Assembly (NCBI GenBank): GCA_015655225.1
Contig: JAATFK010000700.1
Location: 1-17,457 of the forward strand
Source of the DNA: Solirubrobacterales bacterium
GTDB taxonomy: Bacteria; Actinomycetota; Thermoleophilia; Solirubrobacterales; Solirubrobacteraceae
Length of the DNA: 17,457 nt
Direction of reading: 5' to 3'
Position numbers and translations under genes: made by a program. Positions 1,530 through 17,457 of the stretch are shown here, one piece after another. The notes under the pieces were generated by a model. That model worked only from the letters and a program-made list of their open reading frames with translations, was not told where the DNA came from and made no database searches. Each line of letters starts with the position of its first letter. Positions within the stretch are counted from its first letter, which is position 1.

Positions 1530-1540
1530 AAGGATCACTC

Positions 1541-2786: not shown

Positions 2787-3680
2787 ATGCGGGTGTCAGA
2801 TCCGGCGGCGATCGATTCGGTCGCGGTCGTCGGTGCGGGCTTCATGGGCTCGGGGATCGCCGAGTCGCTTGCGCGAGCAGGCGTCGACGTCCTCCTCTAC
2901 GAGCCCTCGGCGGGCCCGCTGGAACGCTCGCGTGAGCGCACCGAGGCGTCGGTCTCGCGCGCGGTCCGCGGCGACAAGCTGACGCGTCAGGAGGCCGACG
3001 ACCTGCTCGGCCGGATCGCCTGGACGCCGGAGCTGGGCGACCTGGCCGACGCCTCGCTCGCGATCGAGGCGATCGTCGAGGACCAGGCCGCGAAGGCTGC
3101 CGTCTTCGCGCAGCTCGACGAGGTGCTCGGGGAGGACGCGCTGATCGCGTCGAACACCTCTTCGATCCCGATCGCCGAGCTGGCGGCCGCCACGGCGCGT
3201 CCCGATCGAGTACTCGGGCTGCACTTCTTCTCACCGGTACCGGTGATGAGACTGGTCGAGATCGTCGTCGCGCTGGAGACGTCGGACGAGACGGTCGCGC
3301 GCGCCGAGCGGCTGGTCGAGCGGCTCGGGAAGCGCGCGGTGCGGACGAAGGACCGCTCCGGCTTCGTCGTCAACATGCTGCTGATCCCGTACCTGATGGC
3401 GGCCGTGCGGATGTTCGAGGAGGGCTTCGCCTCACGCGAGGACATCGACGCCGCGATGCAGCTCGGCGCCGGGCACCCGATGGGCCCGCTGACGCTCGCC
3501 GACTTCATCGGCCTCGACGTGCTGTACGCCGTCTGCGACTCGCTCTACGAGGAGTTCAAGCGCGACGAGTACGCGCCGCCGCCGCTGGTGAAGCGGATGG
3601 TCGCCGCCGGGCGCCTCGGGCGCAAGACGGGGCGCGGCTTCTACGAGTACCAGCCGGAGCGCGCGCCGGTCAGAGGCTGA
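2787..3680 (+). CDS. 3-hydroxyacyl-CoA (3-hydroxybutyryl-CoA) dehydrogenase
   Basis: The enzyme oxidises L-3-hydroxyacyl-CoA to 3-ketoacyl-CoA (or the reverse) with NAD(P); it serves fatty-acid beta-oxidation or butanoate metabolism in the cytosol. The protein has 297 residues. The Rossmann glycine motif G16-A-G-F-M-G21 opens the NAD domain, S122-N-T-S-S126 is the conserved loop, and H146 (in L-H-F-F-S-P) and E158 (in M-R-L-V-E) form the catalytic His-Glu dyad with standard spacing of 12. The C-terminal helical domain has G-A-G-H-P-M-G-P-L-T-L-A-D-F-I-G-L-D and ends G-R-K-T-G-R-G-F-Y-E-Y. The ATG at 2787 has AGGAGG (2774-2779) 7 bases upstream. It stands alone; the convergent MarR gene ends 5 bp downstream. 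FadB2/Hbd/PaaH-type relatives cannot be separated by eye. Confidence 0.95.
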   Translation: MRVSDPAAIDSVAVVGAGFMGSGIAESLARAGVDVLLYEPSAGPLERSRERTEASVSRAVRGDKLTRQEADDLLGRIAWTPELGDLADASLAIEAIVEDQAAKAAVFAQLDEVLGEDALIASNTSSIPIAELAAATARPDRVLGLHFFSPVPVMRLVEIVVALETSDETVARAERLVERLGKRAVRTKDRSGFVVNMLLIPYLMAAVRMFEEGFASREDIDAAMQLGAGHPMGPLTLADFIGLDVLYAVCDSLYEEFKRDEYAPPPLVKRMVAAGRLGRKTGRGFYEYQPERAPVRG

Positions 3681-3685
3681 GGGCG

Positions 3686-4189
3686 CTAGCCGAAGTCGCC
3701 GGCGGCGGCGCGCAGCGCGCCGAGCAGGTCGATCAGCGTGGCGAGCTGCCCGTCCGCCAGCGGCTGGAGGCCGAAGCGGGCCTCGTTGAGCGCCGTCGTC
3801 GCTCCCTCGGCGGCGGTGCGGCCGGCCGGGGTGATCACCGCGAGGGTCGTGCGGCGGTCGGAGGGATGCGGCTCGCGGCGCGCCAGCTCGGCGCGTTCGA
3901 GGCCGTCGACGAGGTTCGTGACGCTCGTGCGGTGGACCTGGAGGCGCGCGCCCATCTTGCCGAGCGGGAGCGAGCCGGTGCGGCTGAGGAAGAGCAGCAT
4001 CAGGGCTTCGTAGCGGGGGAACGTGAGGGAGAAGGGGGCGACCGTCTCGTTCAGCCGCGCCATCAGGATCTGCTGGGTCCGCATGATCGAGGTCGTCGCC
4101 GCCATCGGCGCCGCCGTGGGCTCGCCCCAGTGTCTGGCCCAGTGGTGCGCGGCCTCCTCGATCGGATCGAAGGGGAGCGTCTCAGCCAC
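3686..4189 (-). CDS. MarR family transcriptional regulator
   Basis: A 167-residue winged-helix regulator expected to bind DNA as a dimer. The N-terminus has H-H-W-A-R-H-W-G, a pattern seen in MarR proteins near acyl-CoA and aromatic-catabolism genes (general impression). The body has L-T-F-P-R-Y-E-A-L-M-L-L, the H-T-H (L-P-L-G-K-M-G-A-R-L...H-R-T-S-V-T-N-L-V-D-G-L-E) and the wing with D-R-R-T-T-L-A-V-I-T-P-A-G-R. The GTG at 4189 is preferred to an upstream ATG at 4234 because a G-run (GGGGGGA) precedes it at short spacing and the extra residues are not family-like. It is tail-to-tail with the dehydrogenase (5 bp apart) and divergent from the B12 riboswitch. Its target is not shown; the palindrome at 2723-2737 is one candidate site. 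Confidence 0.88.
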   Translation of the reverse strand: MAETLPFDPIEEAAHHWARHWGEPTAAPMAATTSIMRTQQILMARLNETVAPFSLTFPRYEALMLLFLSRTGSLPLGKMGARLQVHRTSVTNLVDGLERAELARREPHPSDRRTTLAVITPAGRTAAEGATTALNEARFGLQPLADGQLATLIDLLGALRAAAGDFG

Positions 4190-4275
4190 GGATCCCCCCG
4201 TGTTCGCACGTGTCGCGCAGCATCCGACGAACATTACGCATCGGGCGCCCGCGTGGCCGTCGCTTCCCCGACGGC

Positions 4276-4281
4276 TATGAT
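4276..4281 (+). promoter_or_regulatory. Candidate -10 element for the cob operon leader
   Basis: TATGAT matches five of six -10 consensus positions and predicts a transcript start near 4288, exactly where the riboswitch aptamer begins. The -35 region is poor (TGGCCG at 4254-4259). Agreement with the aptamer start is the main support. Confidence 0.45.
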
Positions 4282-4287
4282 GCGCCG

Positions 4288-4398
4288 ACGCGTGGCGGTG
4301 CGAGGAAGCCGGTGAGAGACCGGCGCGGTCGCGCCACTGTGATCGGCAGCTCCGCTCGGAGCTTGCCGGGAGCCAGACACTTCACCACCGCGCGACCG
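4288..4398 (+). ncRNA. Cobalamin riboswitch aptamer
   Basis: The leader of cobG carries the conserved parts of an adenosylcobalamin-type riboswitch in order: GCGGTGCGAGGAA (4295-4307), the P3 hairpin GCCGG...CCGGC (4308-4324), the core GCGGTCGCGCCACTGTGATC (4325-4344), a variable hairpin AGCTCC-GCTC-GGAGCT (4348-4363) and the B12-box GCCGGGAGCCAGACAC (4365-4380). The closing CACCACCGC (4383-4391) can pair with the 5' GGCGGTG. It should bind the pathway end product and lower expression of cobG-cobH-cobIJ. The exact ends are estimates. Confidence 0.93.
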
Positions 4399-4407
4399 AC
4401 CCAGACA

Positions 4408-4430
4408 CGGGACGCGTGATCCCGAGGAGG
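4408..4430 (+). promoter_or_regulatory. Riboswitch expression platform: hairpin abutting the ribosome-binding site
   Basis: CGGGA (4408-4412) and TCCCG (4420-4424) form a short hairpin whose 3' base is the first base of the cobG ribosome-binding site GAGGAGG (4424-4430), 4 bases before the ATG. Its loop contains CGCG, self-complementary to CGCG in the aptamer core (4329-4332), so a kissing loop that hides the site is possible. There is no terminator-like T-run, so translational control is inferred. Confidence 0.45.
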
Positions 4431-4434
4431 CACC

Positions 4435-5808
4435 ATGGCGACCACAACCGTCTGCGCCCGCGGTGGCCGAACCGACCGCTGCCCGGGGATCCTGCGCCTC
4501 CACGAGGCCGGCGACGGCGCGCTCGCCCGCGTGCGGCTGCCGGGTGGCCGCGCGAGCGCCGAGGCGCTCGACGCCCTCGCCGCCGGCGCGCGGCTCGGCA
4601 ACGGGATCGCGGAGCTGACCTCGCGGGCGTCGGTGCAGCTGCGGGGGCTGGTTGCTGGGGGGTCGGATGCGCTGGTGGCGGTGCTTCGCGGGGGCGGCCT
4701 GATGCCCTCCGCCGCGCACGACCGCGTGCGCAACGTGCTGGCGAGCCCGTTCGGGGGGCGCGTCGGGGTCGGGGAGCTCGGGAGCGATGACGTGGTCGCG
4801 GCGCTCGACGCGGGGCTCTGCGCGGACGCGGGGCTCGCGGAGCTGCCGGGGCGGTTTCTCTTCGCGGTCGACTGCGGGGACGGCTTCGTCGATCGTGGGG
4901 CGACGGACGTGGGACTCGTGGCCGGCCTCGGTGCGTGGCGGCTCTGGCTCGCGGGGCGTGCGACGGCCCTCGTCGCGGACGACGCGGCCGGAGCGGCCGA
5001 GCTGGCGCTCGCGGCCGCGCGGGCGTTCCTCGCGGTGCGGGGTGCTGGTGGCGGTGACGCGGACGCGGGCGCGGGCAGCGGCGGCACGGCGGGCGGCGCG
5101 CGGGCAGGCGACGACGCGGCGGCCGGCGCGTGGCACGTGCGGGACCTGCCGGACGGCGCCGCCCGGCTCGCGAACGCGCTCGGGACGACGCTCGGCGATG
5201 GCACGCCGGCGACCGCACCCGTCGCCCCGGCCCTCGGCCCCCGCCACCAGCGCGACGGGCGCGTCGCGCTGACCGCCCTCCCCCGCCTCGGACGGCTCGA
5301 CGCCGGTCAGCTCGACGCCCTTGCGGCGCTCGTGCGCGCGGCTGGCGACGGTGCCGACGTGCGGCTCTCGGGCGAGCGGACGATCACCGTCGTCGACATC
5401 GAGCCCGCGCGTGCCGGCGCGCTCGCCGACGGCCTCGCCGCGATCGGCCTGCTGGTCGCCGAGGACGCCGGCTGGGAGGGGCTGTCGGCCTGCTCCGGCG
5501 CGGGCGCCTGCCGCCGCGCCCGGATCGACGTGCGCGCCGCCGCCGAGGTGCGCGCGACGCAGCGCGGCCCCGGCGCGCCGCGCGAGCACTGGTGCGCCTG
5601 CGACCGCGGCTGCGGGATGCCGCGCGGCCAGGGCGTCGTCCAGGTCGCCGCTGCCGGCGACGACGAGCGCGTCGGCGGCGACCACCCCGCCCTCGACGCC
5701 GAGGCGGCCGTCCACGTGACCGTCGCCGGCGCGACGACGACGGCCCGCTCGGCGGCCGACGCGATCGCGCTGCTCGCGACGCCGGCCAAGGTCGAGGTCC
5801 CCGCGTGA
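4435..5808 (+). CDS. cobG: Precorrin-3B synthase
   Basis: CobG is the oxygen-dependent iron-sulfur monooxygenase that converts precorrin-3A to precorrin-3B, setting up ring contraction in the aerobic B12 pathway. It is a relative of nitrite/sulfite reductases. The protein has 457 residues: an N-terminal half with the ferrodoxin-like repeat (L-T-S-R-A-S-V-Q-L-R-G-L, and P-F-G-G-R), an Ala/Gly-rich insert near residues 200-235, a second repeat (L-S-G-E-R-T-I-T-V-V-D), and the cluster-binding region with C353-x5-C359 and C389-x3-C393 (plus C387). It starts at ATG 4435 behind GAGGAGG and the riboswitch. Its stop overlaps the cobH start by 4 bases. Its presence marks this as the aerobic route. Confidence 0.92.
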   Translation: MATTTVCARGGRTDRCPGILRLHEAGDGALARVRLPGGRASAEALDALAAGARLGNGIAELTSRASVQLRGLVAGGSDALVAVLRGGGLMPSAAHDRVRNVLASPFGGRVGVGELGSDDVVAALDAGLCADAGLAELPGRFLFAVDCGDGFVDRGATDVGLVAGLGAWRLWLAGRATALVADDAAGAAELALAAARAFLAVRGAGGGDADAGAGSGGTAGGARAGDDAAAGAWHVRDLPDGAARLANALGTTLGDGTPATAPVAPALGPRHQRDGRVALTALPRLGRLDAGQLDALAALVRAAGDGADVRLSGERTITVVDIEPARAGALADGLAAIGLLVAEDAGWEGLSACSGAGACRRARIDVRAAAEVRATQRGPGAPREHWCACDRGCGMPRGQGVVQVAAAGDDERVGGDHPALDAEAAVHVTVAGATTTARSAADAIALLATPAKVEVPA

Positions 5809-6431
5809 TCGCCTACGAGCGCGACGGCGCCGAGATCTACCGGCAGTCGTTCGCGATCATCCGCGCGGAGGCCGACCTGAGCGGGCTCGATCCGGTCCTC
5901 GCCCGCACCGTCGTGCGGATGATCCACGCCAGCGGCATGGTCGACCTGCGTCGCGACGTCGCCTTCTCCCCCGGCTTCGGCGCCGCCGCGGTCACCGCGC
6001 TCCAGGGCGGCGCGCCGATCCTCTGCGACACGATGATGGTCGCCTCCGGCGTCACGCGCAGACGCCTGCCGGCCGACAACGAGGTCGTCTGCACGCTCCC
6101 CGAGCCGGGCATCCCGGAGCTGGCGCGCGAGCTCGGCACGACCCGCAGCGCCGCCGCGATGGAGCGCTGGCGCGACCGCCTCGACGGCTCTCTCGTCGTG
6201 ATCGGCAACGCCCCGACCGCCCTCTTCCACCTGCTGGAGATGGTCGCCGGCGGCGCCGGCCGGCCGGCCGCCGTGATCGGCGTCCCGGTCGGCTTCGTCG
6301 GCGCGGCCGAGTCGAAGGTCGCGCTGACCGAGGATCGGTCGGGGCTCGAGCACCTGGTCGTCCACGGCCGCCGCGGCGGCAGCGCGATCGCCGCCGGCGC
6401 CGTCAACGCGCTCGCGACCGACGTCGAATGA
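5805..6431 (+). CDS. cobH: Precorrin-8X methylmutase
   Basis: CobH moves the C11 methyl group to C12, turning precorrin-8 into hydrogenobyrinic acid. The protein has 208 residues, the usual size. The catalytic histidine is H41 in V-R-M-I-H-A-S-G-M-V-D; other family signatures are G-G-A-P-I-L-C-D-T-M-M-V-A-S-G, I-G-N-A-P-T-A-L-F-H-L-L-E and V-G-V-P-V-G-F-V-G-A-A-E-S-K-like text. The GTG start at 5805 overlaps the cobG stop (GTGA, 5805-5808), and its own TGA overlaps the cobIJ ATG (6428-6431). A longer open frame exists upstream but lies inside cobG. Expression is expected to follow the riboswitch. Confidence 0.95.
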   Translation: MIAYERDGAEIYRQSFAIIRAEADLSGLDPVLARTVVRMIHASGMVDLRRDVAFSPGFGAAAVTALQGGAPILCDTMMVASGVTRRRLPADNEVVCTLPEPGIPELARELGTTRSAAAMERWRDRLDGSLVVIGNAPTALFHLLEMVAGGAGRPAAVIGVPVGFVGAAESKVALTEDRSGLEHLVVHGRRGGSAIAAGAVNALATDVE

Positions 6432-7936
6432 CGCCTCCCGAGCCCACGGCCGCCCCCGGCCGCCTCGTCGGCGTCGGCGTCGGCCCCGGTGACCCCGAGC
6501 TGCTGACGCTCAAGGCGACGCGCGCGATCGCCGACGCCGACGTCGTCGCCTACCCCTCGGCCCGCCACGGCCAGAGCGTCGCGCGCCGGATCGCGGCGCC
6601 GTACCTGCGGGCCGACCACCTCGAGGTGCTGCTGAGATTCCCGGTCACGACCGAGCTGGTCGAGCATCCGGGCGGCTACGAGGTCGCGCTGCAGGAGTTC
6701 TACGACGAGGCCTCGGAGGAGCTGGCGGTCCATCTCGACGCCGGCCGCGACGTCGCGATCCTGTGCGAGGGCGATCCGTTCTTCTACGGCTCCTACATGT
6801 ACTTCCACGACCGCCTCGCGCCCCGCTACGAGACGACCGTGATCCCCGCCGTGACGGCGTTCAGCGCCGCCGCCGCGGCCGCCGGCAGACCGCTCGTCAA
6901 GCGCGACGACGTGTTCATGGCCCTGCCCGGCACGCTCCCCGTCGAGACGCTCGCGGAGCACCTGCGCCACGCCGACGCGGCGGTCGTGATGAAGCTCGGG
7001 CGGACGTTCCCGCACGTGCGTGAGGCGGCCGAGCTGGCCGGCGTGCAGGAGCGCGGGATCTACGTCGAGCGGGCCAGCTCGGAGCGGGAGCGGGTCATGC
7101 CGCTCACCGACGTCGGGGAGCAGGTCCCCTACATGTCGCTCGTGCTCGTGCCGACCGACCAGACCGGCCCGCGCTCGGTCCACGAGCACGGCGGCTCGGT
7201 CGCGGTCGTCGGCCTCGGGCCGGCCGGTCCCGACTGGCTGACGCCGGAGGCGCGCGCGGAGCTGGCGGCGGCCGACGCGGTCGTCGGCTACGAGACCTAC
7301 CTCGCGCGCGTCCCGGCGCGCGTCGGGCAGGACCGCCACGGGAGCGACAACCGCGTCGAGGCCGACCGCGCGCGCCACGCGCTGAGCCTCGCGGCGGCGG
7401 GTGCGCGCGTCGCCGTCGTCTCCTCCGGCGACCCCGGCATCTTCGCGATGGCGAGCGCGGTGCTGGAGCAGCTGGAGGGGGACGACTTCCCCGGCGTCGA
7501 GGTGCGGATCGTCCCCGGGCTCTCGGCGATGCAGGCGGCGGCCTCGCGCGTCGGGGCGCCGCTCGGGCACGACTTCGCCGTCCTCTCGCTCTCCGACGTG
7601 CTGAAGCCGTGGGACGTGATCGAGCGGCGGCTCGACGCCGTCGGCGCGGCCGACCTCGCGCTCGCGCTCTACAACCCGCGCTCCCGCGCGCGGCCGACGC
7701 AGCTGGAGGACGCGCGCGCGATCCTGCTGCGCCACCGGGCGCCGGCGACGCCGGTCGTGCTGGCGCGGGCGGTCGGGGCGGCGCAGGAGCGCGTCACGGT
7801 GACGACCCTCGCCGACTTCGACGCCGAGGCGGTCGACATGCGCACGCTGCTGCTGGTCGGCTCCTCCACGACCCGCGTGATCGCCCGCGACGGCCGCGCG
7901 CCGCAGGTCTACACGCCGCGGCGCTACCCCGCCTGA
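6428..7936 (+). CDS. cobIJ: Fused precorrin-2 C20-methyltransferase / precorrin-3B C17-methyltransferase (CobIJ)
   Basis: One 502-residue protein holds two SAM-dependent methyltransferases. CobI (about residues 12-245) methylates precorrin-2 at C20 and begins G-V-G-V-G-P-G-D-P-E-L-L-T-L-K-A; it has C-E-G-D-P-F-F-Y-G-S. CobJ (about 256-490) methylates C17 and performs ring contraction of precorrin-3B; it begins V-A-V-V-G-L-G-P-A-G-P-D-W-L-T-P-E-A and has S-S-G-D-P-G-I-F-A-M-A and L-Y-N-P-R-S-R. The same fusion is known in other actinobacteria such as Mycobacterium. CobG acts between the two fused steps and is encoded in the same operon. The ATG overlaps the cobH stop; the C-terminal codons overlap cobK, which runs in the opposite direction, by 13 bp. 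Confidence 0.95.
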   Translation: MTPPEPTAAPGRLVGVGVGPGDPELLTLKATRAIADADVVAYPSARHGQSVARRIAAPYLRADHLEVLLRFPVTTELVEHPGGYEVALQEFYDEASEELAVHLDAGRDVAILCEGDPFFYGSYMYFHDRLAPRYETTVIPAVTAFSAAAAAAGRPLVKRDDVFMALPGTLPVETLAEHLRHADAAVVMKLGRTFPHVREAAELAGVQERGIYVERASSERERVMPLTDVGEQVPYMSLVLVPTDQTGPRSVHEHGGSVAVVGLGPAGPDWLTPEARAELAAADAVVGYETYLARVPARVGQDRHGSDNRVEADRARHALSLAAAGARVAVVSSGDPGIFAMASAVLEQLEGDDFPGVEVRIVPGLSAMQAAASRVGAPLGHDFAVLSLSDVLKPWDVIERRLDAVGAADLALALYNPRSRARPTQLEDARAILLRHRAPATPVVLARAVGAAQERVTVTTLADFDAEAVDMRTLLLVGSSTTRVIARDGRAPQVYTPRRYPA

Positions 7937-8703
7937 GCCGCCGCCGCGCGGCGCGCCCAGGCGAGCGCGGCGTCGACCGTCTCGACACGGGCGACGTCGG
8001 GGCGCGCCGGGCGGCGCACGACGATCACCGGAAGTCCCCGCGCACGGGCGGCGTCGAGCTTCGCGACCGTCAGGGGGCCGCCGCTGTCCTTCGTGACGAC
8101 GAGGTCGAGCGCGTGGGTGTCGATCAGGTTGAGCTCGCCCGCGAGCGTGTAGGGGCCGCGGTCGAGCAGCAGCTCGTGGTGGGGCGGGAGTGGCGGGTCG
8201 GGCGGATCGACGCAGCGGATCAGGAACCAGGCGTCGGCGATCCCGGCGAAGGCGGGCAGACCCTGGCGGCCCGTCGTCAGGAGGACGCGCGCGCCGAGCC
8301 CGGCGGGCGGTGGGCCGAGCAGCGCTGCGGCTCCCGCGAGGTCGTCGACCCAGGTCCAGCGGTCCCCCTCACGCTCGCTCCAGCCGGGCCGTTCGAGCCG
8401 CAGCAACGGGATCCCGGCGGTGGCCGCGGCCTGCGTCGCGGAGGCCGAGATGCGCTCGGCGAACGGGTGGGTGGCGTCGGCGACGGCGGCGATCCGCTCC
8501 CGCGCGAGCCACGCCGCGAGCGCGACCGGGCCGCCGAAGCCGCCGACGCGCACCTCGCCGACCGGCAGCCGCGGGCGCGCGACGCGACCGGCGAGCGAGG
8601 AGATCACCGGGATCCCCTCCGCGTGCAGCCGCTCGGCCAGATCGCGGGCCTCGCCGGTGCCGCCGAGGATCAGGATCCGGCGCGCGGCGCTCCCCGCGCT
8701 CAC
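7924..8703 (-). CDS. cobK: Precorrin-6A reductase
   Basis: CobK uses NADPH to reduce precorrin-6A to precorrin-6B. The 259-residue protein begins with the nucleotide-binding loop I-L-I-L-G-G-T-G-E-A-R-D-L-A and has the signature A-D-A-T-H-P-F-A-E-R-I-S and V-T-K-D-S-G-G near the C-terminus. The start is GTG at 8703, overlapping the cobM stop by GTGA (8700-8703). It is the last gene of the minus operon; its TAG (7926-7924) lies inside the 3' end of cobIJ, so no terminator separates the convergent operons. Confidence 0.95.
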   Translation of the reverse strand: MSAGSAARRILILGGTGEARDLAERLHAEGIPVISSLAGRVARPRLPVGEVRVGGFGGPVALAAWLARERIAAVADATHPFAERISASATQAAATAGIPLLRLERPGWSEREGDRWTWVDDLAGAAALLGPPPAGLGARVLLTTGRQGLPAFAGIADAWFLIRCVDPPDPPLPPHHELLLDRGPYTLAGELNLIDTHALDLVVTKDSGGPLTVAKLDAARARGLPVIVVRRPARPDVARVETVDAALAWARRAAAAQAG

Positions 8704-9443
8704 GACCGCTCGCGCGCCTTCGAGTAGAGGAAGCTGTCGTCGAAGTCGCGACCCGCGAGGGCGGGGCCGACGAAGATCGTCGCCGTCCGTCTGACGCCGT
8801 GCTCGGCGACCGCGGCGGCGATCGTCGCGAGCGTGCCGCGCAGGATCAGCTCGTCGGGCCAGCTCGCGCGCGCGACGACGGCGGCGGGGCAGTCGGCACC
8901 GTAGTGCGGGACGAGGACGGCGACCAGCTCCTCCATCGCCTGGACGCCGAGGTGCAGGACGAGCGTCGCGCCGTGGGACGCGAGCGACTCGAGCCGCTCG
9001 CCCTCCGGCAGCGGCGAGGAGTCGCGGCGGTAGCGCGTCAGGATCACCGTCTGCGCGACGCCCGGCAGCGTCAGCTCCTGGCGCAGCGTCGCGGCGGCGG
9101 CGGCGAACGCGGGGACGCCGGGCGTCATGTCCCAGTCGATCCCGAGCGCGTCGAGGCGACGCGTCTGCTCGCCGACGGCGCTGTAGATCGAGAGGTCGCC
9201 CGAGTGCAGGCGGGCGACGTCCTCGTGGCGGGCGTGCGCGCGCTCGAACTCGGCGACGATCTCGTCCAGCTGAAGGCTCTGGGTGTCGATCACGCGGGCG
9301 TCGGCGGGGGCGTGCGCGAGCACCTCGGGCGGGACCAGCGCGCCCGCGTAGAGGCAGACCGGGCTGCTCGCGATCAGCCGCTGCGCGCGCAGCGTCAGGA
9401 GGTCGGGCGCGCCCGGGCCAGCGCCGATGAAGTGGACGGTCAC
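8700..9443 (-). CDS. cobM: Precorrin-4 C11-methyltransferase
   Basis: CobM adds the C11 methyl to precorrin-4 using SAM, giving precorrin-5. The 247-residue protein starts V-T-V-H-F-I-G-A-G-P-G-A-P-D-L-L-T-L, and shows Y-A-G-A-L-V-P-P-E-V-L, L-H-S-G-D-L-S-I-Y-S-A-V-G-E-Q and the T-P-G-V-P-A-F loop, all typical of CobM/CbiF. The GTG at 9443 has AAGGAGG just upstream and overlaps the cobL stop (GTGA, 9440-9443). The open frame continues upstream to 9953, but that stretch is antisense-type, Arg/Pro-rich and inside cobL. Confidence 0.95.
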   Translation of the reverse strand: MTVHFIGAGPGAPDLLTLRAQRLIASSPVCLYAGALVPPEVLAHAPADARVIDTQSLQLDEIVAEFERAHARHEDVARLHSGDLSIYSAVGEQTRRLDALGIDWDMTPGVPAFAAAAATLRQELTLPGVAQTVILTRYRRDSSPLPEGERLESLASHGATLVLHLGVQAMEELVAVLVPHYGADCPAAVVARASWPDELILRGTLATIAAAVAEHGVRRTATIFVGPALAGRDFDDSFLYSKARERS

Positions 9444-10675
9444 GACGCCTCCTTGGTGATGGACCACTGGACGATCGGGAGCTGGTCGCGCCAGGCGGTG
9501 AAGCGTCCGACCGGCTCGGCGTGGCCGACCGCGAGCCGCGTGAGGCTGCCGCCGTGGCGCGCGCGAGCCGCCTGGAGCAGCTGCTCGCCCTCCAGCGTGA
9601 CGGCGTTGGCGACGAGGCGGCCGCCGGGGAGGAGCGCGTCGTGGCAGCGGTCGAGCAGGTCGGGCGCGGCGGTCAGGCCGCCGCCGACGAAGATCGCATG
9701 GGGCGGGTCGAGTTGGTCCAGGGCCTCGGGCGCCTTGCCTTCGACGATGGTCAGCTCGGGGACGCCGAGCGTGCGGGCGTTGTGGGCGATCCGGGCGGCT
9801 CGCTCGGGGTGGGGCTCGATCGCGACCGCGCGCGCCGAGGGCTCCGCACGCAGCCACTCGATCCCGATCGAGCCGGAGCCGGCGCCGACGTCCCACAGCA
9901 GCTGACCGGGCGCGGGGGCGAGGGCCGCGAGCGTCACGGCGCGAACGACCCACTTCGTCAGCTGGCCGTCGTGCGCGTAGGCGTCATCGGGGAGGCCGGG
10001 GATGCGGGGGAGCGGACGGGTCCCGGGGGCGGGACGGCAGCTGATCGCGACCGCGTGGAGCGGGTCGGCGGCGCGCTCACCCCAGGTCTCGGCGGTCGCA
10101 TGGTGGAGCTGCTCGCCGGGACCGCCGAGCTGCTCCAGCACGGTGAAGTCGCTCAGACCCCAGCCGCGGTCGGTGAGGATCGTGGCGAGCGTGGCGGCAC
10201 CGTCGGCGCCGGTCACGTAGACGACGATCCTCTGGTGGGGCTGCAACGCGCGGGCGACCAGCTCCGGTGCGCGGGCGACGGCGCTCAGCAGCTCGACCTC
10301 GGCCTCCGGCCAGCCGAGGCGCGCGCAGGCGTAGGCGAAGGCGGAGGGGTGCGGGAGGACGCGAGGGGCCGGGGTGCCGTTGTCGGCGCGGCGCTTCGCA
10401 AGGGTGGCGCCGATCCCGTGGAGCATCGGGTCGCCGCTCGCGAGGACGACCGTGCCCGGCTCGGTTCCGCGGGCCAGCTCCTCGACGAGGGGGTCGAGCG
10501 GGGAGGGCCACGGGCGGCGCTCGGCGCCGGCGGTCGCGGTCTGCGGGACGGCGTCGAGCTGGCGGCGGGAGCCGACCAGGAGGCGCGCGGTGCCGAGCGC
10601 GTCCCGAGCCTCGTCGCCGAGGCCGGCCCAGCCGTCGGCGCCGATGCCGACGATCGTGAGGGACGGGTGGGTCAT
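9440..10675 (-). CDS. cobL: Precorrin-6B C5,15-methyltransferase (decarboxylating), CbiE-CbiT fusion
   Basis: CobL methylates precorrin-6B at C5 and C15 and removes the C12 acetate carboxyl, giving precorrin-8. The 411-residue protein has an N-terminal CbiE domain (I-V-G-I-G-A-D-G-W-A-G-L; A-S-G-D-P-M-L-H-G-I-G; L-P-H-P-S-A-F-A-Y-A-C-A-R-L-G-W) and a C-terminal CbiT Rossmann methyltransferase (L-L-W-D-V-G-A-G-S-G-S-I-G-I-E-W; A-I-E-P-H-P-E-R; F-V-G-G-G-L). This is the usual CobL arrangement. The ATG at 10675 overlaps the stop of the upstream fusion gene (ATGA, 10672-10675). Confidence 0.95.
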   Translation of the reverse strand: MTHPSLTIVGIGADGWAGLGDEARDALGTARLLVGSRRQLDAVPQTATAGAERRPWPSPLDPLVEELARGTEPGTVVLASGDPMLHGIGATLAKRRADNGTPAPRVLPHPSAFAYACARLGWPEAEVELLSAVARAPELVARALQPHQRIVVYVTGADGAATLATILTDRGWGLSDFTVLEQLGGPGEQLHHATAETWGERAADPLHAVAISCRPAPGTRPLPRIPGLPDDAYAHDGQLTKWVVRAVTLAALAPAPGQLLWDVGAGSGSIGIEWLRAEPSARAVAIEPHPERAARIAHNARTLGVPELTIVEGKAPEALDQLDPPHAIFVGGGLTAAPDLLDRCHDALLPGGRLVANAVTLEGEQLLQAARARHGGSLTRLAVGHAEPVGRFTAWRDQLPIVQWSITKEAS

Positions 10676-12249
10676 CGGGCCACCGCCTCCGCGAGCGCGG
10701 CGACGAGCCGTGCGTTCTTCTCCGGCGTGCGGGCCGTCAGTCGCAGGTGACCGGCGCCGAGGCCGGGGAACGAGGCGGCCTCGCGGACGGCGATCCGCTG
10801 TTCCCGCAGGCGTGCGGCGACCGCCGCTCCGTCGGCGACCTCGACCAGCACGAAGTTCGCGGCCGCCGGCCAGGTGCGGACGCCGGCGACGGCGGCGAGT
10901 CGCGCGACGAGGTCCTCCCGCTCTGCTCGTGCACGCTCGGCGGCCTCGGCGAGCGCATCGGGGCGGCTCGCGAAGGCGGCGAGCGCGGCGAGCGCGAGCG
11001 CGTTGACCGACCACGGCGGGCGCACGTCGCGCAGCCGCTGGGCGAGCCGTGGAGGCGCGACCGCGTAGCCGGCGCGCAGGCCCGGGATCGCGAGCGACTT
11101 CGTCAGGCTGCGCACGACGATCACGTCGTCGTGGCGGGTGTGGAGGAGCGTCTCCGGCTCGCCCGGGACGAGGTCCATGAACGCCTCGTCGACCACGACG
11201 ACGCGGCCGGGACGGCGCAGCGCGAGGATGGTCGCGGCCGGGTCGAGCGTCCCGCTCGGGGAGGCCGGGTTGCCGACGACGACGAGGTCGGCGGCGTCCG
11301 GCACGGCGTCCGGGTCGAGAACGAAGCCGCTGTCGGAGTCGCGAGTGACCCGGACGACCGGTACATTGTGCGCCCTCAGCGCCGCCTCCGCCTCGGTGAA
11401 CGCGGGATGGACGCAGGCGGCGAGCGTCGGGCGCAGGGCGGCGGGAAGCAGCCAGAACGCGGCCGCGGCGCCGTTGGCCGGGACGATCTCGTCGGCGGCG
11501 CGGTCGTGGAGCGCGGCGAGCGCCGCGACGGCCGCGGACTCGTCGGGGTAGCGGACGACGTCGTGGTCGAGCGCTTGCTGGAGCACGGCGCGGAGCCACG
11601 CCGGCGGCCCGCCGGCGAGGACGTTGACGGCATGGTCCGCGTCGCCAGGACGCACGGCGGTGTCGCCGTGGCGCCGGAGGTCGTCGTCGATCCCCTCAGG
11701 TCCCCTTGGTCCGGGCAGCTCGACCGCGCGACCGGCGACGACCAGCTCGACGCGGGTCGCGGCGGCGGCGAGCCGCTGGGTCGCGTCGCCGACGAGGTCG
11801 AGCCAGAGGCGGGAGGCGCTGTCGGCCGGGAGGACGCCGTGGCCGCTCTCCTCCGCCACGACGAGCACCAGGCCGGAGTGGGCGACGGCGAGCTGGGCGA
11901 GCCGCTCGATCTCGTCGCGGATGTGCGCGCTGACGGTGGCGAGCGTGGCGTCGTCGGCGCCGTCGAAGGCGCCGGCGAGGTAGAGGGCGGTCGCGATCCA
12001 GGGGCCGAGGCCGTCGACCAGCACGGTCGTGCCGGGCGGGGCGTCGGCGAGGGCATCGGCGAGCTGTGGGCCGGCGGTCACCGTCTCCCACGCGGCCGGG
12101 CGCCGGGCGACGTGGCGCGCGATCCGCTCGCGGTCGCTGTCGTCGGCGGTCGCGACGTAGCGGACCGGCGCGCCGCTCGCGACGGCGAGGCGCTCGGCGT
12201 GGGCGCTCTTGCCGGAGCGGGTTCCGCCGATCACGAGCCGCAGGCTCAT
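10672..12249 (-). CDS. Fused adenosylcobinamide kinase/guanylyltransferase (CobU/CobP) and L-threonine-O-3-phosphate decarboxylase (CobD/CobC)
   Basis: The 525-residue protein joins two B12 enzymes. Residues 1 to about 175 are CobU: P-loop G8-G-T-R-S-G-K-S15, H46 (the position guanylylated in CobU) in R-I-A-R-H-V-A-R-R-P-A-A-W, V-D-G-L-G-P-W and V-A-E-E-S-G-H-G-V-L-P. It phosphorylates adenosylcobinamide and transfers GMP. Residues about 205-525 are a fold-type I PLP enzyme like CobD/HisC: V-G-N-P-A-S-P-S-G, V-V-V-D-E-A-F, the PLP lysine K384 in S-L-T-K-S-L-A-I-P-G-L-R-A-G-Y, and a C-terminal R-L-T-A-R-T-P-E-K-N. In this context it should make aminopropanol phosphate from threonine phosphate. 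No internal stop or frameshift is seen. Both ends overlap neighbours by 4 bases. Confidence 0.92.
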   Translation of the reverse strand: MSLRLVIGGTRSGKSAHAERLAVASGAPVRYVATADDSDRERIARHVARRPAAWETVTAGPQLADALADAPPGTTVLVDGLGPWIATALYLAGAFDGADDATLATVSAHIRDEIERLAQLAVAHSGLVLVVAEESGHGVLPADSASRLWLDLVGDATQRLAAAATRVELVVAGRAVELPGPRGPEGIDDDLRRHGDTAVRPGDADHAVNVLAGGPPAWLRAVLQQALDHDVVRYPDESAAVAALAALHDRAADEIVPANGAAAAFWLLPAALRPTLAACVHPAFTEAEAALRAHNVPVVRVTRDSDSGFVLDPDAVPDAADLVVVGNPASPSGTLDPAATILALRRPGRVVVVDEAFMDLVPGEPETLLHTRHDDVIVVRSLTKSLAIPGLRAGYAVAPPRLAQRLRDVRPPWSVNALALAALAAFASRPDALAEAAERARAEREDLVARLAAVAGVRTWPAAANFVLVEVADGAAVAARLREQRIAVREAASFPGLGAGHLRLTARTPEKNARLVAALAEAVAR

Positions 12250-13610
12250 GCGAGCGCGGGCCTCCGGGCACGCGCCGCCGCGACGAAGCGCGCCGGAATC
12301 TGAGGGAAGGCGGCCCAGTGGACGTGGAGGTAGCTCGCCTGCACCGCGCCCGCGACGAAGCCCTCACGGCGCTCACGGCCGCGGGCCGAGAGCGTCCAGG
12401 CGGCGTGCTCGCCGCCGTCGGCGGGCTCCGTCTGGGAGTAGTGGAACTCGTGGCCGCGGAGTCGTTCGCCGGCGGCGAGCCAGGGGGTCGCCGTGGCGGC
12501 GATGGCCTCGCGGTAGCCGAGCGTCAGGCGTCTCCCCATCGCGGCACGGAGCGGCAGCGCGCCGCACATCGCGTGGCCGTCGAGCTGCTCGCCGAGGTAG
12601 AGGAGGCCGCCGCACTCGGCGAGCACCGGCCGGCCGGCGGCGACGTGGGCCGCGACCGCCGCGCGCAGCGGCGCGTTCGCCGCCAGCTCCTCGCCGAACA
12701 CCTCGGGGAAGCCGCCCGCGAGGACGAGGGCGTCGGTCGCGGCCGGCAGCGCCTCGTCGTGGAGCGGGTCGAAGGCGACCAGCTCGGCGCCGGCCCCCTC
12801 CAGCAGCTCGAGGTTCTCGCGGTAGTGGAAGGAGAAGGCCGGGCCTTGGGCGACGGCGATCCGCGCCGGGGCGGCGGGTGCGGCGGCGGGGTCCGGGCTC
12901 CAGGCGGGGCCGGGGAGCGGAGGGGCGTCGCGGGCGAGGGCGAGGAGGGCGTCGAGGTCGGTCGAGGACTCGATCAGGGAGGTAAGCGCTTCGAGGGCGG
13001 CGCCGGTGCGGGCGCGGCGCTCGTCGGCGGGGACGAGGCCGAGGTGACGCTCGGGGGCGGCGACGCGCTCGTCGCGGCGCAGGGCTCCGAGCACCGGGAT
13101 CCCGAGCGGCGCGACGGCCTCCCGCAGCAGCTCCTCATGGCCCTCGGAGCCGACGCGGTTGAAGATCACGCCGGCGACGACGAGGTCGGGGTCGAAGGTC
13201 GCGAAGCCATGGACGATCGCGGCCGCCGAGCGGGCCATCGCGGAGCCGTCGACGACGAGGACGACGGGGGCGTGGAGGAGCTTCGCGACATGGGCGGTCG
13301 AGGCCAGCTCGCCCCTGCCGGAGGCGCCGTCGAAGAGGCCCATGACGCCCTCGACGACGGCGACGTCGGCGCCCTGGGCGCCGTGGCGCACGAGGGGGGC
13401 GATCAGGTCGGGGCCGCTGAGGAAGGCATCGAGGTTGCGCCCGGGGCGGCCGGAGGCGAGGGCGTGGTAGCTCGGGTCGATGTAGTCGGGCCCGACCTTG
13501 AAGCCCTGGACCCGGAGTCCACGCGCGCGGAGGGCGCCGATCAGGCCGGAGGCGACGGTCGTCTTGCCGGCGCCCGAGCTGGTGCCGGCGATCACGAGTC
13601 GGGGGATCAT
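12246..13610 (-). CDS. cobB: Hydrogenobyrinic acid a,c-diamide synthase
   Basis: CobB/CbiA amidates the a and c side chains of hydrogenobyrinic (or cobyrinic) acid using ATP and glutamine. The 454-residue protein has the N-terminal dethiobiotin-synthetase-like ATPase domain (P-loop G9-T-S-S-G-A-G-K-T-T18; G-F-K-V-G-P-D-Y-I-D-P; V-E-G-V-M-G-L-F-D-G) and a C-terminal class I glutamine amidotransferase domain with nucleophile C333 in A-E-C-G-G-L-L-Y-L and H429-V-H431 in Y-L-H-V-H-W. With CobG present, hydrogenobyrinate (metal-free) is the expected substrate. The start ATG at 13610 overlaps the upstream gene stop. Confidence 0.95.
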   Translation of the reverse strand: MIPRLVIAGTSSGAGKTTVASGLIGALRARGLRVQGFKVGPDYIDPSYHALASGRPGRNLDAFLSGPDLIAPLVRHGAQGADVAVVEGVMGLFDGASGRGELASTAHVAKLLHAPVVLVVDGSAMARSAAAIVHGFATFDPDLVVAGVIFNRVGSEGHEELLREAVAPLGIPVLGALRRDERVAAPERHLGLVPADERRARTGAALEALTSLIESSTDLDALLALARDAPPLPGPAWSPDPAAAPAAPARIAVAQGPAFSFHYRENLELLEGAGAELVAFDPLHDEALPAATDALVLAGGFPEVFGEELAANAPLRAAVAAHVAAGRPVLAECGGLLYLGEQLDGHAMCGALPLRAAMGRRLTLGYREAIAATATPWLAAGERLRGHEFHYSQTEPADGGEHAAWTLSARGRERREGFVAGAVQASYLHVHWAAFPQIPARFVAAARARRPALA

Positions 13611-14668
13611 GCCGCGCGTTCGACCCCTTCTCCGGACGCCTCATCGGGACTCGCTAGATCGATCGCTCCAACGTCTTGGAGTGGCAATTGGGAGATACTG
13701 CGCTCCGTGAGGCGGACGGGCGGGAGCGCGGCGGCGCGGGCGGGCGGCGCGGCGGCGGCCGCGGGCGCGGCGGGCAGACGGACGGGGCGCGGGGCGATGT
13801 CGGCCCGCCACGTCACGCACGGCACCGGCGCGCCGTCGTGGCGGCCGGTGCTCGGGTCGCAGCCGTGGTCGGGGCAGACGCGCAGCGTGCCGCCGCGCGT
13901 GCGGAGCGCGGCCGTCAGCGGTGCGAGGAGGTCGCGGTCCGCCGCCTCCAGCGCGGCGACCTTCGCAGCACCATCGAGCTCGTGCGCCGCCTCGTCGGGG
14001 CCGCCGACGTGGACCACCACCCGCGCACAACCGCCCGCCAGCGCGCGCAGCGCCGCGTCGGCCTTCGCCGCCAGGTCGCTTCCCGGCCGGCCGGTCGCCC
14101 CGGGCGGGATGACGACGCGCGCGCCGAGCAGCCGGGCGATGCCGGCGGCCGCGCCGCGCGCGGCGACCATCACGGTGTCGCCGTCGAGGACCCGGGGCGG
14201 GACGACGCCCTCGGGCCAGACGTGGCGGCCGTCGTCTCCCGCGCACGCGGGCAGCGGTGCCGGCCCGACCGCGAGCAGCCGGTGGCCGCCGAGCGTGTGG
14301 ACGGCGTGGCGTGGCAGCAGCGCATCCAGCTCCAGTGCGGTCGCGCCTGTGTGCGCCGCGCTCGCGCGGCCGCCGTCGCCGGCGCGCACGTCGATCCGCC
14401 AGGCCCGCTCGTCCGGCGCCAAGAACAGCTCGCGTGCGGCCGCCTCGACCGCGCCGCGATCGACCGGCGCCGGCGGCGTCCAGCCGAGCAGCGCCGGGAT
14501 CGCGGACTCGGAGCCGGCCGGGAGCCCGCGCGCGACCGTCCGCACACGTGACAGCTTGCCCGCCGCGACGAGCGCGTCGAGCGTCGGGGTGCGGGCGCGC
14601 TCGAGGCTCGTCGGGCCGTCGCCGATCGGCTCGCTCGCGCCGTCGAGGATCACGAGGACGTCCGTCAC
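13607..14668 (-). CDS. ApgM-like alkaline-phosphatase-superfamily phosphomutase/phosphatase in the cob operon
   Basis: The 353-residue protein belongs to the iPGM/ApgM branch of the alkaline phosphatase superfamily. All seven metal/catalytic residues of cofactor-independent phosphoglycerate mutase have counterparts: D9 (I-L-D-G), S53 (A-G-S-E-S-A), D225 and H229 (G-P-D-E-A-A-H-E), D267-H268 (C-P-D-H-G-C) and H277 (G-R-H-D-G). It is shorter than typical ApgM (about 400) and has an Ala/Pro-rich stretch near residues 295-318 before the C-terminus. The GTG at 14668 overlaps the cobO stop (GTGA) and the end overlaps cobB (ATGA), so it is embedded in the B12 operon. No standard B12 enzyme is of this family. 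It may be an alpha-ribazole phosphate phosphatase, a supplier of threonine phosphate, or another phospho-transfer enzyme; all are inference. Confidence 0.85.
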   Translation of the reverse strand: MTDVLVILDGASEPIGDGPTSLERARTPTLDALVAAGKLSRVRTVARGLPAGSESAIPALLGWTPPAPVDRGAVEAAARELFLAPDERAWRIDVRAGDGGRASAAHTGATALELDALLPRHAVHTLGGHRLLAVGPAPLPACAGDDGRHVWPEGVVPPRVLDGDTVMVAARGAAAGIARLLGARVVIPPGATGRPGSDLAAKADAALRALAGGCARVVVHVGGPDEAAHELDGAAKVAALEAADRDLLAPLTAALRTRGGTLRVCPDHGCDPSTGRHDGAPVPCVTWRADIAPRPVRLPAAPAAAAAPPARAAALPPVRLTERSISQLPLQDVGAIDLASPDEASGEGVERAA

Positions 14669-15297
14669 CACTCGATCCCCTGCTGGGCGCGGATGCCGGC
14701 GTCCATCGGGTGCTTGACCTTCGTCACCTCGGAGACGAGGTCGGCCAGCTCCAGCAGCTCGGGGGCGGCGTCGCGGCCGGTGATGACGACGTGCTGGAAG
14801 CCGGGACGGTCGCGCAGGGTCGCGACGACGTCGTCGACCTCGATCCAGCCCCACTTGATCGGGTAGGTGATCTCGTCGAGCAGCAGGAACTCGTAGCGCT
14901 CGGCGGCGATCGCGCGCTTCACCTCGGCCCAGCCCTCGCGGGCGAGGTCGGCGGACTCGTCGAGGTCGCGGGAGAGCCACGACCAGCCGTCGCCCATCTT
15001 CTCCCAGTCGATCCCGCCGAGGGCCTGCGCGGCTCTCGCCTCGCCGACCTTCCACTTGCCCGACTTGACGAACTGGAAGACGCCGCAGCGGTAGCCCCGC
15101 GCCCACGAGCGCAGCAGCATCCCGAACGCGGAGGTGCTCTTGCCCTTGCCCTGCCCCGTGATCACCATCACGAGCGGCTTGTCGCGCGGCTTGCGGCGCT
15201 TCGGCTCGGCGCTGCCCTGGTCGCCCGGACGGTGCGGCACGTCCACGTCGTCGCCGCCGTGACGGGCGAGCTGGCTCGGCTGGTCGGCTGCGGTCAT
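14665..15297 (-). CDS. cobO: Cob(I)yrinic acid a,c-diamide adenosyltransferase
   Basis: CobO (BtuR/CobA type) transfers the 5'-deoxyadenosyl group of ATP to the cob(I)alt centre. The 210-residue protein has a charged, probably flexible N-terminus (about 1-40, K-R-R-K-P-R-D-K), the modified P-loop T47-G-Q-G-K-G-K-S-T55, then Q-F-V-K-S-G-K-W, L-L-L-D-E-I-T-Y-P-I-K-W-G-W, H-V-V-I-T-G-R-D-A and the C-terminal V-K-H-P-M-D-A-G-I-x-A-Q-x-G-I-E-W. The ATG at 15297 overlaps the chelatase stop (ATGA, 15294-15297). The frame is open upstream to 16665, but that is antisense-like text within the chelatase gene. Confidence 0.96.
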   Translation of the reverse strand: MTAADQPSQLARHGGDDVDVPHRPGDQGSAEPKRRKPRDKPLVMVITGQGKGKSTSAFGMLLRSWARGYRCGVFQFVKSGKWKVGEARAAQALGGIDWEKMGDGWSWLSRDLDESADLAREGWAEVKRAIAAERYEFLLLDEITYPIKWGWIEVDDVVATLRDRPGFQHVVITGRDAAPELLELADLVSEVTKVKHPMDAGIRAQQGIEW

Positions 15298-17450
15298 GCG
15301 GCGCTCCTGCGGATCGTGGACGGCGGGGCGAGCTGGTGCACGCGACCCCCGGCCGCCGTCGCCAGGTCGGCCGCGAGGCCGAGGCGCACCGCCCCGTCCT
15401 CGGTGTCGACGACGTGGACGGCGGAGGCGGCGGAGCCGAGCGAGCGCGCGGCGGCGGGAACCGCGCGCTCGGGATCGCTGACGCGGGCGTCGGTGAGAAC
15501 GATCGCAACGGAGCGGCGCCCGCGCTCCCGCAGGGCCTCCCGGCGAATCACGCGCTCGGCCTCGCGGAGGCCGGCGGCGAGCGGGGTGCGGCCGCCGGTC
15601 GGCAAGGCGCGGATCGCGGCGGCCGCCTGCTGGAGGGGAGCGCCGGGGGCGACCAGCAGCTCCGCGCGCGCGTCGCGAAAGGCGATCACGGCGACGCGGT
15701 CGCGACGGGCGTAGGCGTCGCGCAGGAGGCCGATGAGGGCGCCCTTGACGCGCGCGAGCCGCTGCCGGGCGCCCATCGAGCCGCTGGCATCGACGACGAG
15801 GCAGAGCAGCACGCTCTCGCGCCCCGCGCGGACGTGCTCGCGGAGGGGGGTGGTGGGGGTGGCGCGGCGGGGGGAGGCGGGCGCGGCGGGGGTGGTGGCG
15901 GCGGCGAGCGAGGCGGCAGCGGGCGCGGCGGCAGCTCCCCTCGCGAGGCCGGCGTCGAGGATCCGAGCACGCAGGGTTGCGACCAGCGCGATGTCGCGCG
16001 GCTCGCCTCCGCTCGCTCCGGCGGGACGGCTGTCGATCGCTCCGGCGCCCGGGCCGCGCGTGCGGGCGCGGCGGCCGGCGGGGCCGTCGCCGGCGCCCGC
16101 GAGTGCGAGGGCCGCGAGCGGGAGGTGCGCCGGCGCGGGCGGGTCCCGCCGTTCGCGCGCGGCGACGCCCGGGACCGGGTCGCCCCCGGCGGCCGGCGCG
16201 GCCGGGTCGTGGCGCGGTGGGGCCGAGACGGACGCGTCGCGGCCAGCACCGTGCTCGCCCGCGGATCCCGCGCCGCCGCCGGGGCCGGCGGCGCCGGGCC
16301 CCTCGGGCGCTCCGGCGCTGGGCGCCCCGCCGCTCGGCGCCCCGCTGCGGGCTGGCGCGCCGTTCCCGGACGCCCCCGCCCCGCCCTCGCCGTCGGGGCC
16401 GCCGCCCGAAGGCGCACCGCCACCCGAAGGCCCGTCGTCCTCCGGCAGATCGGAGCCGTCGAGCGCCCGCTCCAGCTCGTCGTCCGCGCCGCCGCGCGCC
16501 CCGTCGAGCGGGTCGCGGTGGCGGCGGTGCGCGAGTGCCAGCGCGGCGGCGCGGCGCACGTGGTCCTCCCCCACCTCCTCGGCCCCGTCGAGCGCGGCGA
16601 GCGCCCGGGCGGCGCGCGCGCAGACGATGTCGCCGCGCACCCCGTCGATCCCCAACTGAGCGCACGCGCCGGTGATCCGCAACAGCTCGCGCTCCGGCAG
16701 CCGCACCGCGCCGACGAGCGCGCGCGCCGTCGCGATCCGCTCGCGCAGCGCGTTCTCGGCGTCGACCCAGCGCAGCGCGAAGCCTGCCGGATCCGCCTCG
16801 AACGCGAGCCGGCGGCGCACGATCTCGGCCCGCTGCGCCGGGTCGCGCGGGGCACGCACCTCGACGCCGAGGCCGAAGCGGTCGAGCAGCTGCGGGCGCA
16901 GCTCGCCCTCCTCGACGTTCATCGTCCCGACCAGCAGGAAGCGGGCGGCGTGCGACGCCGAGACGGCCTCGCGCTCGACCCGCGCGACGCCGGAGGCGGC
17001 CGCGTCGAGCAGCGCGTCCACGAGGTGGTCGGGCAGCAGGTTGACCTCGTCCACGTAGAGGATCCCCTGGTGCGCACGGGCCAGCAGGCCGGGCTCGAAC
17101 GCCTGCTCGCCGGCGAGCGCCCGGCCGAGGTCGAGCGCGCCGACGAGCCGGTCGAGCGTCGCGCCGAGCGGCAGCTCGACGAGCGTGGCGGCGCGCGGGG
17201 CGACCGCCGCGTCGGCCGGCACGGGGCCGTCGGGCGCCAGCTCCCCGGGCCCTAACGCGAACGCCTGACCGGCGGCCGCGCCCACCGGCGGCAGCAGCGG
17301 CGCGAGGGCACGCACGGCGGTCGACTTCGCGGTTCCCCGCTCGCCCCGCACGAGCACCCCGCCGACCTCGGGCGCGACCGCGTTGACGAGCAACGCCTCG
17401 ACCAGCGCCTCCTGGCCGACCAGAGCGGAGAGCGGGTACGCCACGGTCAC
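15294..17450 (-). CDS. Putative cobaltochelatase subunit, ChlI-ChlD-like AAA+/VWA fusion
   Basis: The 718-residue protein combines a magnesium-chelatase ChlI-type AAA+ motor (residues about 5-330; Walker A G36-E-R-G-T-A-K-S-T44, Walker B with D134-E135 in I-L-Y-V-D-E-V-N-L-L, then G-T-M-N-V-E-E-G-E-L-R-P-Q-L-L-D-R-F), a long Gly/Ala/Pro-rich linker (about 340-545) and a C-terminal von Willebrand A domain with MIDAS D554-x-S556-x-S558 and a later G-G-R-T-P-L-A. This is the one-piece partner of CobN used for ATP-driven cobalt insertion in many actinobacteria, in place of CobS plus CobT. The GTG at 17450 is part of a GTGA that fits a 4-base overlap with a gene beyond the edge, likely cobN; a second in-frame GTG at 17444 is possible. 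Confidence 0.9.
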   Translation of the reverse strand: MTVAYPLSALVGQEALVEALLVNAVAPEVGGVLVRGERGTAKSTAVRALAPLLPPVGAAAGQAFALGPGELAPDGPVPADAAVAPRAATLVELPLGATLDRLVGALDLGRALAGEQAFEPGLLARAHQGILYVDEVNLLPDHLVDALLDAAASGVARVEREAVSASHAARFLLVGTMNVEEGELRPQLLDRFGLGVEVRAPRDPAQRAEIVRRRLAFEADPAGFALRWVDAENALRERIATARALVGAVRLPERELLRITGACAQLGIDGVRGDIVCARAARALAALDGAEEVGEDHVRRAAALALAHRRHRDPLDGARGGADDELERALDGSDLPEDDGPSGGGAPSGGGPDGEGGAGASGNGAPARSGAPSGGAPSAGAPEGPGAAGPGGGAGSAGEHGAGRDASVSAPPRHDPAAPAAGGDPVPGVAARERRDPPAPAHLPLAALALAGAGDGPAGRRARTRGPGAGAIDSRPAGASGGEPRDIALVATLRARILDAGLARGAAAAPAAASLAAATTPAAPASPRRATPTTPLREHVRAGRESVLLCLVVDASGSMGARQRLARVKGALIGLLRDAYARRDRVAVIAFRDARAELLVAPGAPLQQAAAAIRALPTGGRTPLAAGLREAERVIRREALRERGRRSVAIVLTDARVSDPERAVPAAARSLGSAASAVHVVDTEDGAVRLGLAADLATAAGGRVHQLAPPSTIRRSAA

Positions 17451-17457
17451 GAGGCCG

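Follow-up and report, generated by a model that had tools for sequence, protein, structure and literature searches.

Why should a relative of the phosphoglycerate mutases be encoded in the middle of an operon for cobalamin (vitamin B12) synthesis? This question is raised by a stretch of 17,457 nucleotides from a Solirubrobacterales bacterium (assembly GCA_015655225.1, contig JAATFK010000700.1, positions 1 to 17,457), referred to here in its whole length as the window, in which the gene of an enzyme resembling ApgM and the cofactor-independent phosphoglycerate mutases (iPGM), named X in the following, lies between cobO and cobB. According to our analysis, X is very probably an enzyme of the B12 pathway and neither a glycolytic mutase nor a replacement of CobC. 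As to its reaction, the comparison of the sequences and their neighbourhoods leads us to propose tentatively, as a reading which may well prove wrong, that X supplies L-threonine O-3-phosphate for cobalamin synthesis. The genes on which the argument turns are the following:

13607..14668, minus strand: X, ApgM/iPGM-like metalloenzyme of 353 amino acids (aa), with a GTG start at 14668 and a TGA stop at 13607
14665..15297, minus strand: cobO, corrinoid adenosyltransferase (TIGR00708, 218 bits, above the cut-off; start picked at MTAADQ)
12246..13610, minus strand: cobB, hydrogenobyrinic/cobyrinic acid a,c-diamide synthase (NF002204, 532 bits, above the cut-off)
10672..12249, minus strand: CobU (cobinamide kinase/guanylyltransferase) fused to a CobC/CobD-type threonine-phosphate decarboxylase (PF02283 and PF00155)

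The start of X shares GTGA with the stop of cobO and its stop shares ATGA with the start of cobB, which confirms the 4-base overlaps described in an earlier reading of the window, the original prediction, to which the minus strand of the gene is to be added. The CobD domain that it placed two genes downstream of X was likewise found there, C-terminal to CobU in the fused protein, which scored 235 bits with TIGR01140 and 353.7 bits with NF005915, both below the models' own cut-offs.

Family membership and catalytic residues of X

By its sequence, X belongs to the ApgM / Metalloenzyme superfamily (PF01676), the Pfam model matching it with an E-value of 3.2e-21 and 76.4 bits against a gathering score of 24.3, and the histidine phosphatase domain PF00300 is not among its Pfam hits. 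The seven residues that the original prediction had singled out (D9, S53, D225, H229, D267, H268 and H277) were all found at these positions. They are invariant in an alignment of 31 rows and in 183 of the 183 rows of a larger one, which consists of the listed best hits of two homology searches with X itself included and hence of close kin. In the alignment with the archaeal ApgM structures 2zkt and 3idd, they fall on the equivalent residues, which we take to be those of the metals and the nucleophile. The nucleophile was named as S53, which is correct for X itself, but serine or threonine is the proper statement for the family, in which position 53 is threonine in four of 16 more diverse orthologues (L111, L112, L114, L041; GTE motif). 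The AlphaFold2 model of X has a mean pLDDT (predicted local distance difference test) of 90.7 and the solved structures nearest to it are archaeal mutases, with no row of the VIA-align structure list being taken as excluding other folds.

The best named family for X is TIGR00306 (apgM) with 142.9 bits, far from the cut-off of 320, and TIGR02535 gave 109.5 bits against a cut-off of 446.3; indeed, every NCBIfam model matching X missed its curated cut-off by a wide margin. Compared with the archaeal ApgM proteins of TIGR00306 (2zkt, 3idd/3kd8), X lacks the DRRAGR stretch present in the 2zkt and 3idd sequences, its family is shorter (median 324 aa in the 183-row alignment, as opposed to 399-412 aa for the PDB chains), it forms a separate clade and it sits among cob genes, with a GpmI elsewhere in the genome. 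A further distinguishing position is Asp93, which is invariant in all 183 close homologues, whereas Asn is found there in the 13 rows of the TIGR02535 type and in five of the eight mutase-type rows (L072 was left out of this residue alignment).

In the second of two phylogenetic trees, which contained 16 X rows, 13 rows of the TIGR02535 type, eight of the mutase type and two archaeal mutases, the X rows formed one clade with a support of 100/100, and the mutases, including the archaeal ones, were split from the remaining rows with the same support. No full-length row could be used from the loci L121, L127 and L133, and L072 and the rows of genus g17 were left out of this tree. A closer relationship of X to TIGR02535 than to the mutases was hinted at by profile scores and was not upheld by the approximately unbiased (AU) test. 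Judging from these sequences, X is treated here as a third branch of the ApgM family, which may join either of the other two. The first tree placed four catalytically degenerate copies from genus g17 within the X clade. These proteins (L063 5576-6709, L064 2609-3697, L065 1775-2863, L066 6267-7355) are 33-37% identical, have lost the ligands at D9, D225, H229, H268 and H277, lie away from matchable cob genes and look like dead or repurposed copies.

Recurrence of X in cobalamin loci

Among 300 genomes of the class, one of them that of the window, 114 gave a match and 32 were counted as having an orthologue of X. An E-value of about 1e-45 or better was required, except for G219, which was accepted by its pieces and its cobO-X-cobB locus. 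G287 (48-residue ends only) and the four genomes of genus g17, in which metal ligands are lost, were not counted. The same holds for G014, whose match has E 1e-41 and lies in a lysA-hom-pfkA row (L062), and for every other weaker match, of which some were inspected. The named relatives are all Thermoleophilia, namely Conexibacter, Paraconexibacter, Gaiella occulta, Patulibacter, a Thermoleophilaceae, a Solirubrobacterales and a Gaiellaceae bacterium. According to the original prediction, orthologues lying mostly outside cob loci and active as phosphoglycerate mutase would have spoken against a role in B12 synthesis; cob genes lie near X at all 32 loci. The order cobO-X-cobB occurs in 23 genomes; in five genomes of genus g9, X adjoins cobO with cobB 0.7-2.7 kb away, and in two it adjoins cobB and the contig ends before cobO. 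The last two are G252, in which X is flanked by cobQ and cbiZ and overlaps each of them by 4 bases (L053 852-3522) on a contig of 3.5 kb that carries neither cobO nor cobB, and G228, in which no cobO or cobB is near X and a CobU-CobC(D) gene starts about 2.3 kb downstream.

CbiB was matched in 88 of the 300 genomes (86 above the cut-off), and X is present in 27 of these 88 as opposed to five of the 212 CbiB-negative genomes (Fisher p 9e-12, without correction for kinship), all five having cob genes beside X. A search of 296 genomes of the phylum revealed X in two further actinobacterial family codes outside the class. X shares its loci with cob genes in the family codes f1, f3, f7, f13 and f50. 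Six outside-class loci were fetched. The order cobO-X-cobB is found in G371, G404 and G422, and in G494 cobO and X are followed by the contig end. G401 carries cobO and then X and CobB in one frame of 771 aa (L109 11674-13989), which was not used as evidence of a fusion, as the X part seems to be frame-shifted towards its end, which makes a true fusion doubtful. In G519, a late cluster reads phosphatase, cbiB, cobQ, cobO, X, cobU, cobC(D), cobT and cobS; a further cluster, which holds cobN and methyltransferases, includes another cobO, with no X. Between X and CobU this late cluster also encodes a weakly CobH-like protein of 361 aa with a long N-terminal part (L113 8619-9704).

The setting of G252 is that of cobyric acid, the stage at which the linker is added, and the placements in G252 and G519 speak for a late step, for example the supply of the linker. 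They fail to separate linker supply from dephosphorylation of the nucleotide loop.

Candidate roles of X

That X is an extra phosphoglycerate mutase or another glycolysis-linked protein which stands in the operon by accident is very improbable. Its best named family and nearest solved structures are those of mutases, and the scarcity of cofactor-dependent phosphoglycerate mutase (dPGM, TIGR01258), which is above the cut-off in only two of 36 genomes tested, looked supportive as well. However, GpmI (TIGR01307) was matched in all 36 genomes (27 with X and nine without), above the cut-off in 33 and in the window's own genome with 632 bits on contig C392, and G401 has a separate ApgM besides X in a row read as gap-pgk-tpi. 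The missed cut-offs, the absent DRRAGR stretch, Asp93 and the recurrence beside cob genes across five family codes also argue against a mutase. The part of the original prediction that makes X a B12-locus enzyme is supported, and X is not the genome's sole candidate for the mutase activity.

The second question is whether X takes the place of CobC. The window and contig C374 of this genome share 141 bases, which are the last of the former and the first of the latter; on C374, the operon continues upstream and in the same direction with cobN, cobQ (both named by reading and clustering), cbiB and a histidine phosphatase; BluB-CobT and CobS are also encoded there. CobS, BluB-CobT, CbiB and a CobB/CobQ-type protein were found on C374 and CobU in the window. 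The phosphatase at the head of the operon (PF00300, L073:6415-7020) has intact motifs, and its best NCBIfam match is the alpha-ribazole phosphatase model TIGR03162 (104.9 bits, below the cut-off of 162.9). Among the 27 genomes that have both X and CbiB, such a CobC-like phosphatase adjoins cbiB in 20 and lies upstream within the cluster in another five (G017, G003 and G146, and by coordinates G209 and G230); G228 has a histidine phosphatase without the ECDFG motif near cobU-cobC, and G147 has none near cbiB among the matches listed. Among CbiB-positive genomes without X, it lies beside cbiB in ten of 15, while none does so among the matches listed for G189, G097, G110 and G152, the table giving zero matches for G097 and G110. 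The RHA, ECDFG and TH motifs are intact in genomes with and without X alike, some frames being incomplete, except for the G228 protein and that of the Gaiella occulta-like G003 (L037 18075-18710), in which Cys replaces the Arg of the RHA motif.

The replacement of CobC by X is rejected as a rule, since a histidine phosphatase co-occurs with X in most genomes checked. Membership in cob operons is what CobC and X have in common; they differ in superfamily and stand in the same operon. Dephosphorylation of alpha-ribazole phosphate or adenosylcobalamin phosphate, one of the roles offered by the original prediction, is disfavoured on this ground: instead of accompanying cob genes in genomes lacking CobC, X co-occurs with the CobC-like phosphatase. 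X could still be a second, non-homologous nucleotide-loop phosphatase acting on the 5'-phosphate of either compound, alone or shared with the histidine phosphatase, which we regard as rather unlikely. The fold family of X includes alkaline phosphatases, X stays with the late genes in G519 and G252, and the altered RHA motif in G003 and the situation in G147 would fit such a role.

The phosphoryl steps of cobalamin synthesis include the phosphorylation of cobinamide, a dephosphorylation and the phosphorylation of threonine. In the operon, the first is accounted for by CobU and the second by the histidine phosphatase, so that threonine phosphorylation is left without a gene (the phosphoryl steps are covered in the accessible part of PMC6249242). 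The supply of threonine phosphate is favoured here because this is the only phosphoryl step without a gene and because the ApgM family offers a precedent. With the known L-threonine kinases PduX and BluE, X would share only the proposed product. These have the GHMP kinase fold and are unrelated to X, which is a PF01676 protein. None was recognised in the seven genomes whose GHMP genes were named: the 15 PF00288 genes are, by best NCBIfam match, seven IspE (all below the cut-off), five ThrB, two GalK and one unmatched. Nor was any PF00288 hit found on the contig of X within 70 kb in 27 X genomes, by reading of positions and as far as the contig ends allow. TIGR01140, the decarboxylase model, is matched in all 32 X genomes, never above its cut-off and not specifically. 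A GHMP kinase gene without an NCBIfam match at E 1e-20 was seen in G265, away from the cob locus (L098 971-1885).

The precedent is TIGR02535/ThrB2 (BT2402 type), for which the accessible part of PMC7311316 proposes the phosphorylation of homoserine from a donor such as phosphoenolpyruvate; ThrB2 is also treated in the part of PMC9026213 that was available. It resembles X in family, in catalytic set and in its place in a biosynthetic row dependent on a phosphorylated hydroxy amino acid, but X stands with cob and not with hom-thrC, is shorter, has Asp93 for Asn, stays far below the TIGR02535 cut-off and is not placed firmly as its sister by the tree. In the same class, a TIGR02535 protein above the cut-off is encoded behind hom and thrC, both named by reading (L069, 4389-7912), and ApgM-type proteins of its clade have the same hom-thrC neighbours at L115-L117. 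In addition, Thermoleophilia relatives carry ApgM-type proteins in lysA-hom-pfkA rows (L062 and L070, the latter just under the TIGR02535 cut-off). Both kinds of row are further context support for the ThrB2 proposal.

X would thus be a dedicated cobalamin-synthesis enzyme, namely a two-metal phosphotransferase from the ApgM family in shortened form, whose Ser53, a Thr in some lineages, accepts a phosphoryl group and passes it to a small alcohol. The likeliest acceptor would be L-threonine, giving L-threonine O-3-phosphate for the decarboxylase domain encoded two genes downstream, with X in the role of the PduX/BluE kinase. If TIGR02535 is a guide, the phosphoryl group would come from a metabolite, for instance phosphoenolpyruvate, and not from ATP. 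Sequence and neighbourhood show the family, the conserved catalytic residues, the recurring position among cob genes and the separate GpmI match and CobC-like phosphatase gene; that metals are bound, that phosphoryl groups are transferred, and from which donor to which acceptor, is what we infer here. The full version of the proposal, an ATP-independent L-threonine phosphotransferase of the alkaline-phosphatase fold that fills the threonine-phosphate step in actinobacteria without PduX/BluE, is put forward with more reserve than the supply of threonine phosphate as such.

Several observations weigh against this proposal. X scores higher with TIGR00306 than with TIGR02535, both far below their cut-offs, and a tree uniting X with the mutases was not rejected (p-AU 0.56). 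The function of TIGR02535 is itself unproven, and BT2402 did not rescue an Escherichia coli thrB mutant according to the accessible part of PMC7311316. The power of PF00288 to detect PduX was not tested, and the X reading frame in G519 is interrupted, for which reason this case is given little weight. Above all, six genomes (G085, G211, G145, G212, G119 and G240) keep the operon with cobO beside cobB and have no X match, and no substitute gene was seen in these operons, where some known genes escaped gene calling (for example ChlID and CobC(D) of L084). A PduX-like kinase in place of X was considered and rejected for the three checked, G085, G211 and G240, which have only ThrB and IspE. X is therefore not obligatory wherever threonine phosphate is needed, and X may help without being required, or else the genomes without it have another, undetected enzyme. 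It is because of these six operons that the threonine-phosphate role is kept at its tentative level. This role, the other one offered by the original prediction, survives as a candidate, by elimination and family precedent; G085, G211 and G240 also lack a recognisable PduX/BluE.

The six otherwise similar operons would also suit an enzyme that is helpful and not essential, acting on a by-product or side substrate such as the tripolyphosphate that CobO releases or a damaged phosphorylated intermediate. Although cobO stays beside X in the five g9 genomes in which cobB lies apart, one of the two cobO genes of G519 is without X, the X of G252 sits between cobQ and cbiZ, and we know of no member of the ApgM family that cleaves polyphosphate, which makes this explanation unlikely. 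Slightly less likely again is that X phosphorylates another alcohol of the linker branch, for example 1-amino-2-propanol, or has as its substrate some cobalamin intermediate outside those discussed. The argument by elimination is identical for this case, and the invariant Asp93 could hold an amine. However, the decarboxylase requires threonine phosphate, and a direct aminopropanol route would leave its domain idle.

The remaining cluster and the significance of X

The window contains the following further genes of the cluster:

15294..17450, minus strand: ChlI/ChlD-type cobaltochelatase subunit (TIGR02442, 596 bits, below the cut-off of 779)
9440..10675, minus strand: cobL-like (CbiE/CbiT) methyltransferase (open reading frame and homology map; named by reading, no family scan)
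8700..9443, minus strand: cobM-like methyltransferase (open reading frame and homology map; named by reading)
7924..8703, minus strand: cobK, precorrin-6A reductase (NF005968, 317 bits, above the cut-off)
6428..7936, plus strand: cobI-cobJ fusion, on the divergent arm of the cluster (TIGR01467 and TIGR01466, above the cut-off)
5805..6431, plus strand: cobH-like precorrin isomerase (open reading frame and homology map; named by reading)
4435..5808, plus strand: cobG-like (open reading frame and homology map; named by reading)

The cobM and cobK genes overlap directly (7924-9443), whereas relatives hold cobF (L003) or cbiD (L085) between them, as far as can be read; neither was seen in the window, the rest of the genome not having been searched for them. 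The CobN of this genome (L073 187-3969) consists of two open frames and is thus broken or mis-assembled on C374.

The fold and the catalytic site of X are known. The X clade, its place among the cob genes and the proposed substrate are absent from the titles and abstract beginnings returned by the literature searches. These likewise mention no ApgM-like gene in a cob operon, subscription papers being mostly outside reach. The accessible part of PMC6461909 describes pduX as missing from most experimentally verified cobamide producers, and the pduX row is blank in the mycobacterial tables seen in PMC8192938. The source of threonine phosphate in cobamide producers without pduX is an open question on which X bears, and its recurrent place, defined family, confident model and orthologues in Conexibacter, Paraconexibacter, Gaiella and Patulibacter make this question testable. 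If the proposal is true, the ApgM fold would have served twice as a source of phosphorylated hydroxy amino acids, once for threonine and once for cobalamin synthesis, and the role of X would also bear on the homoserine question of TIGR02535/ThrB2.

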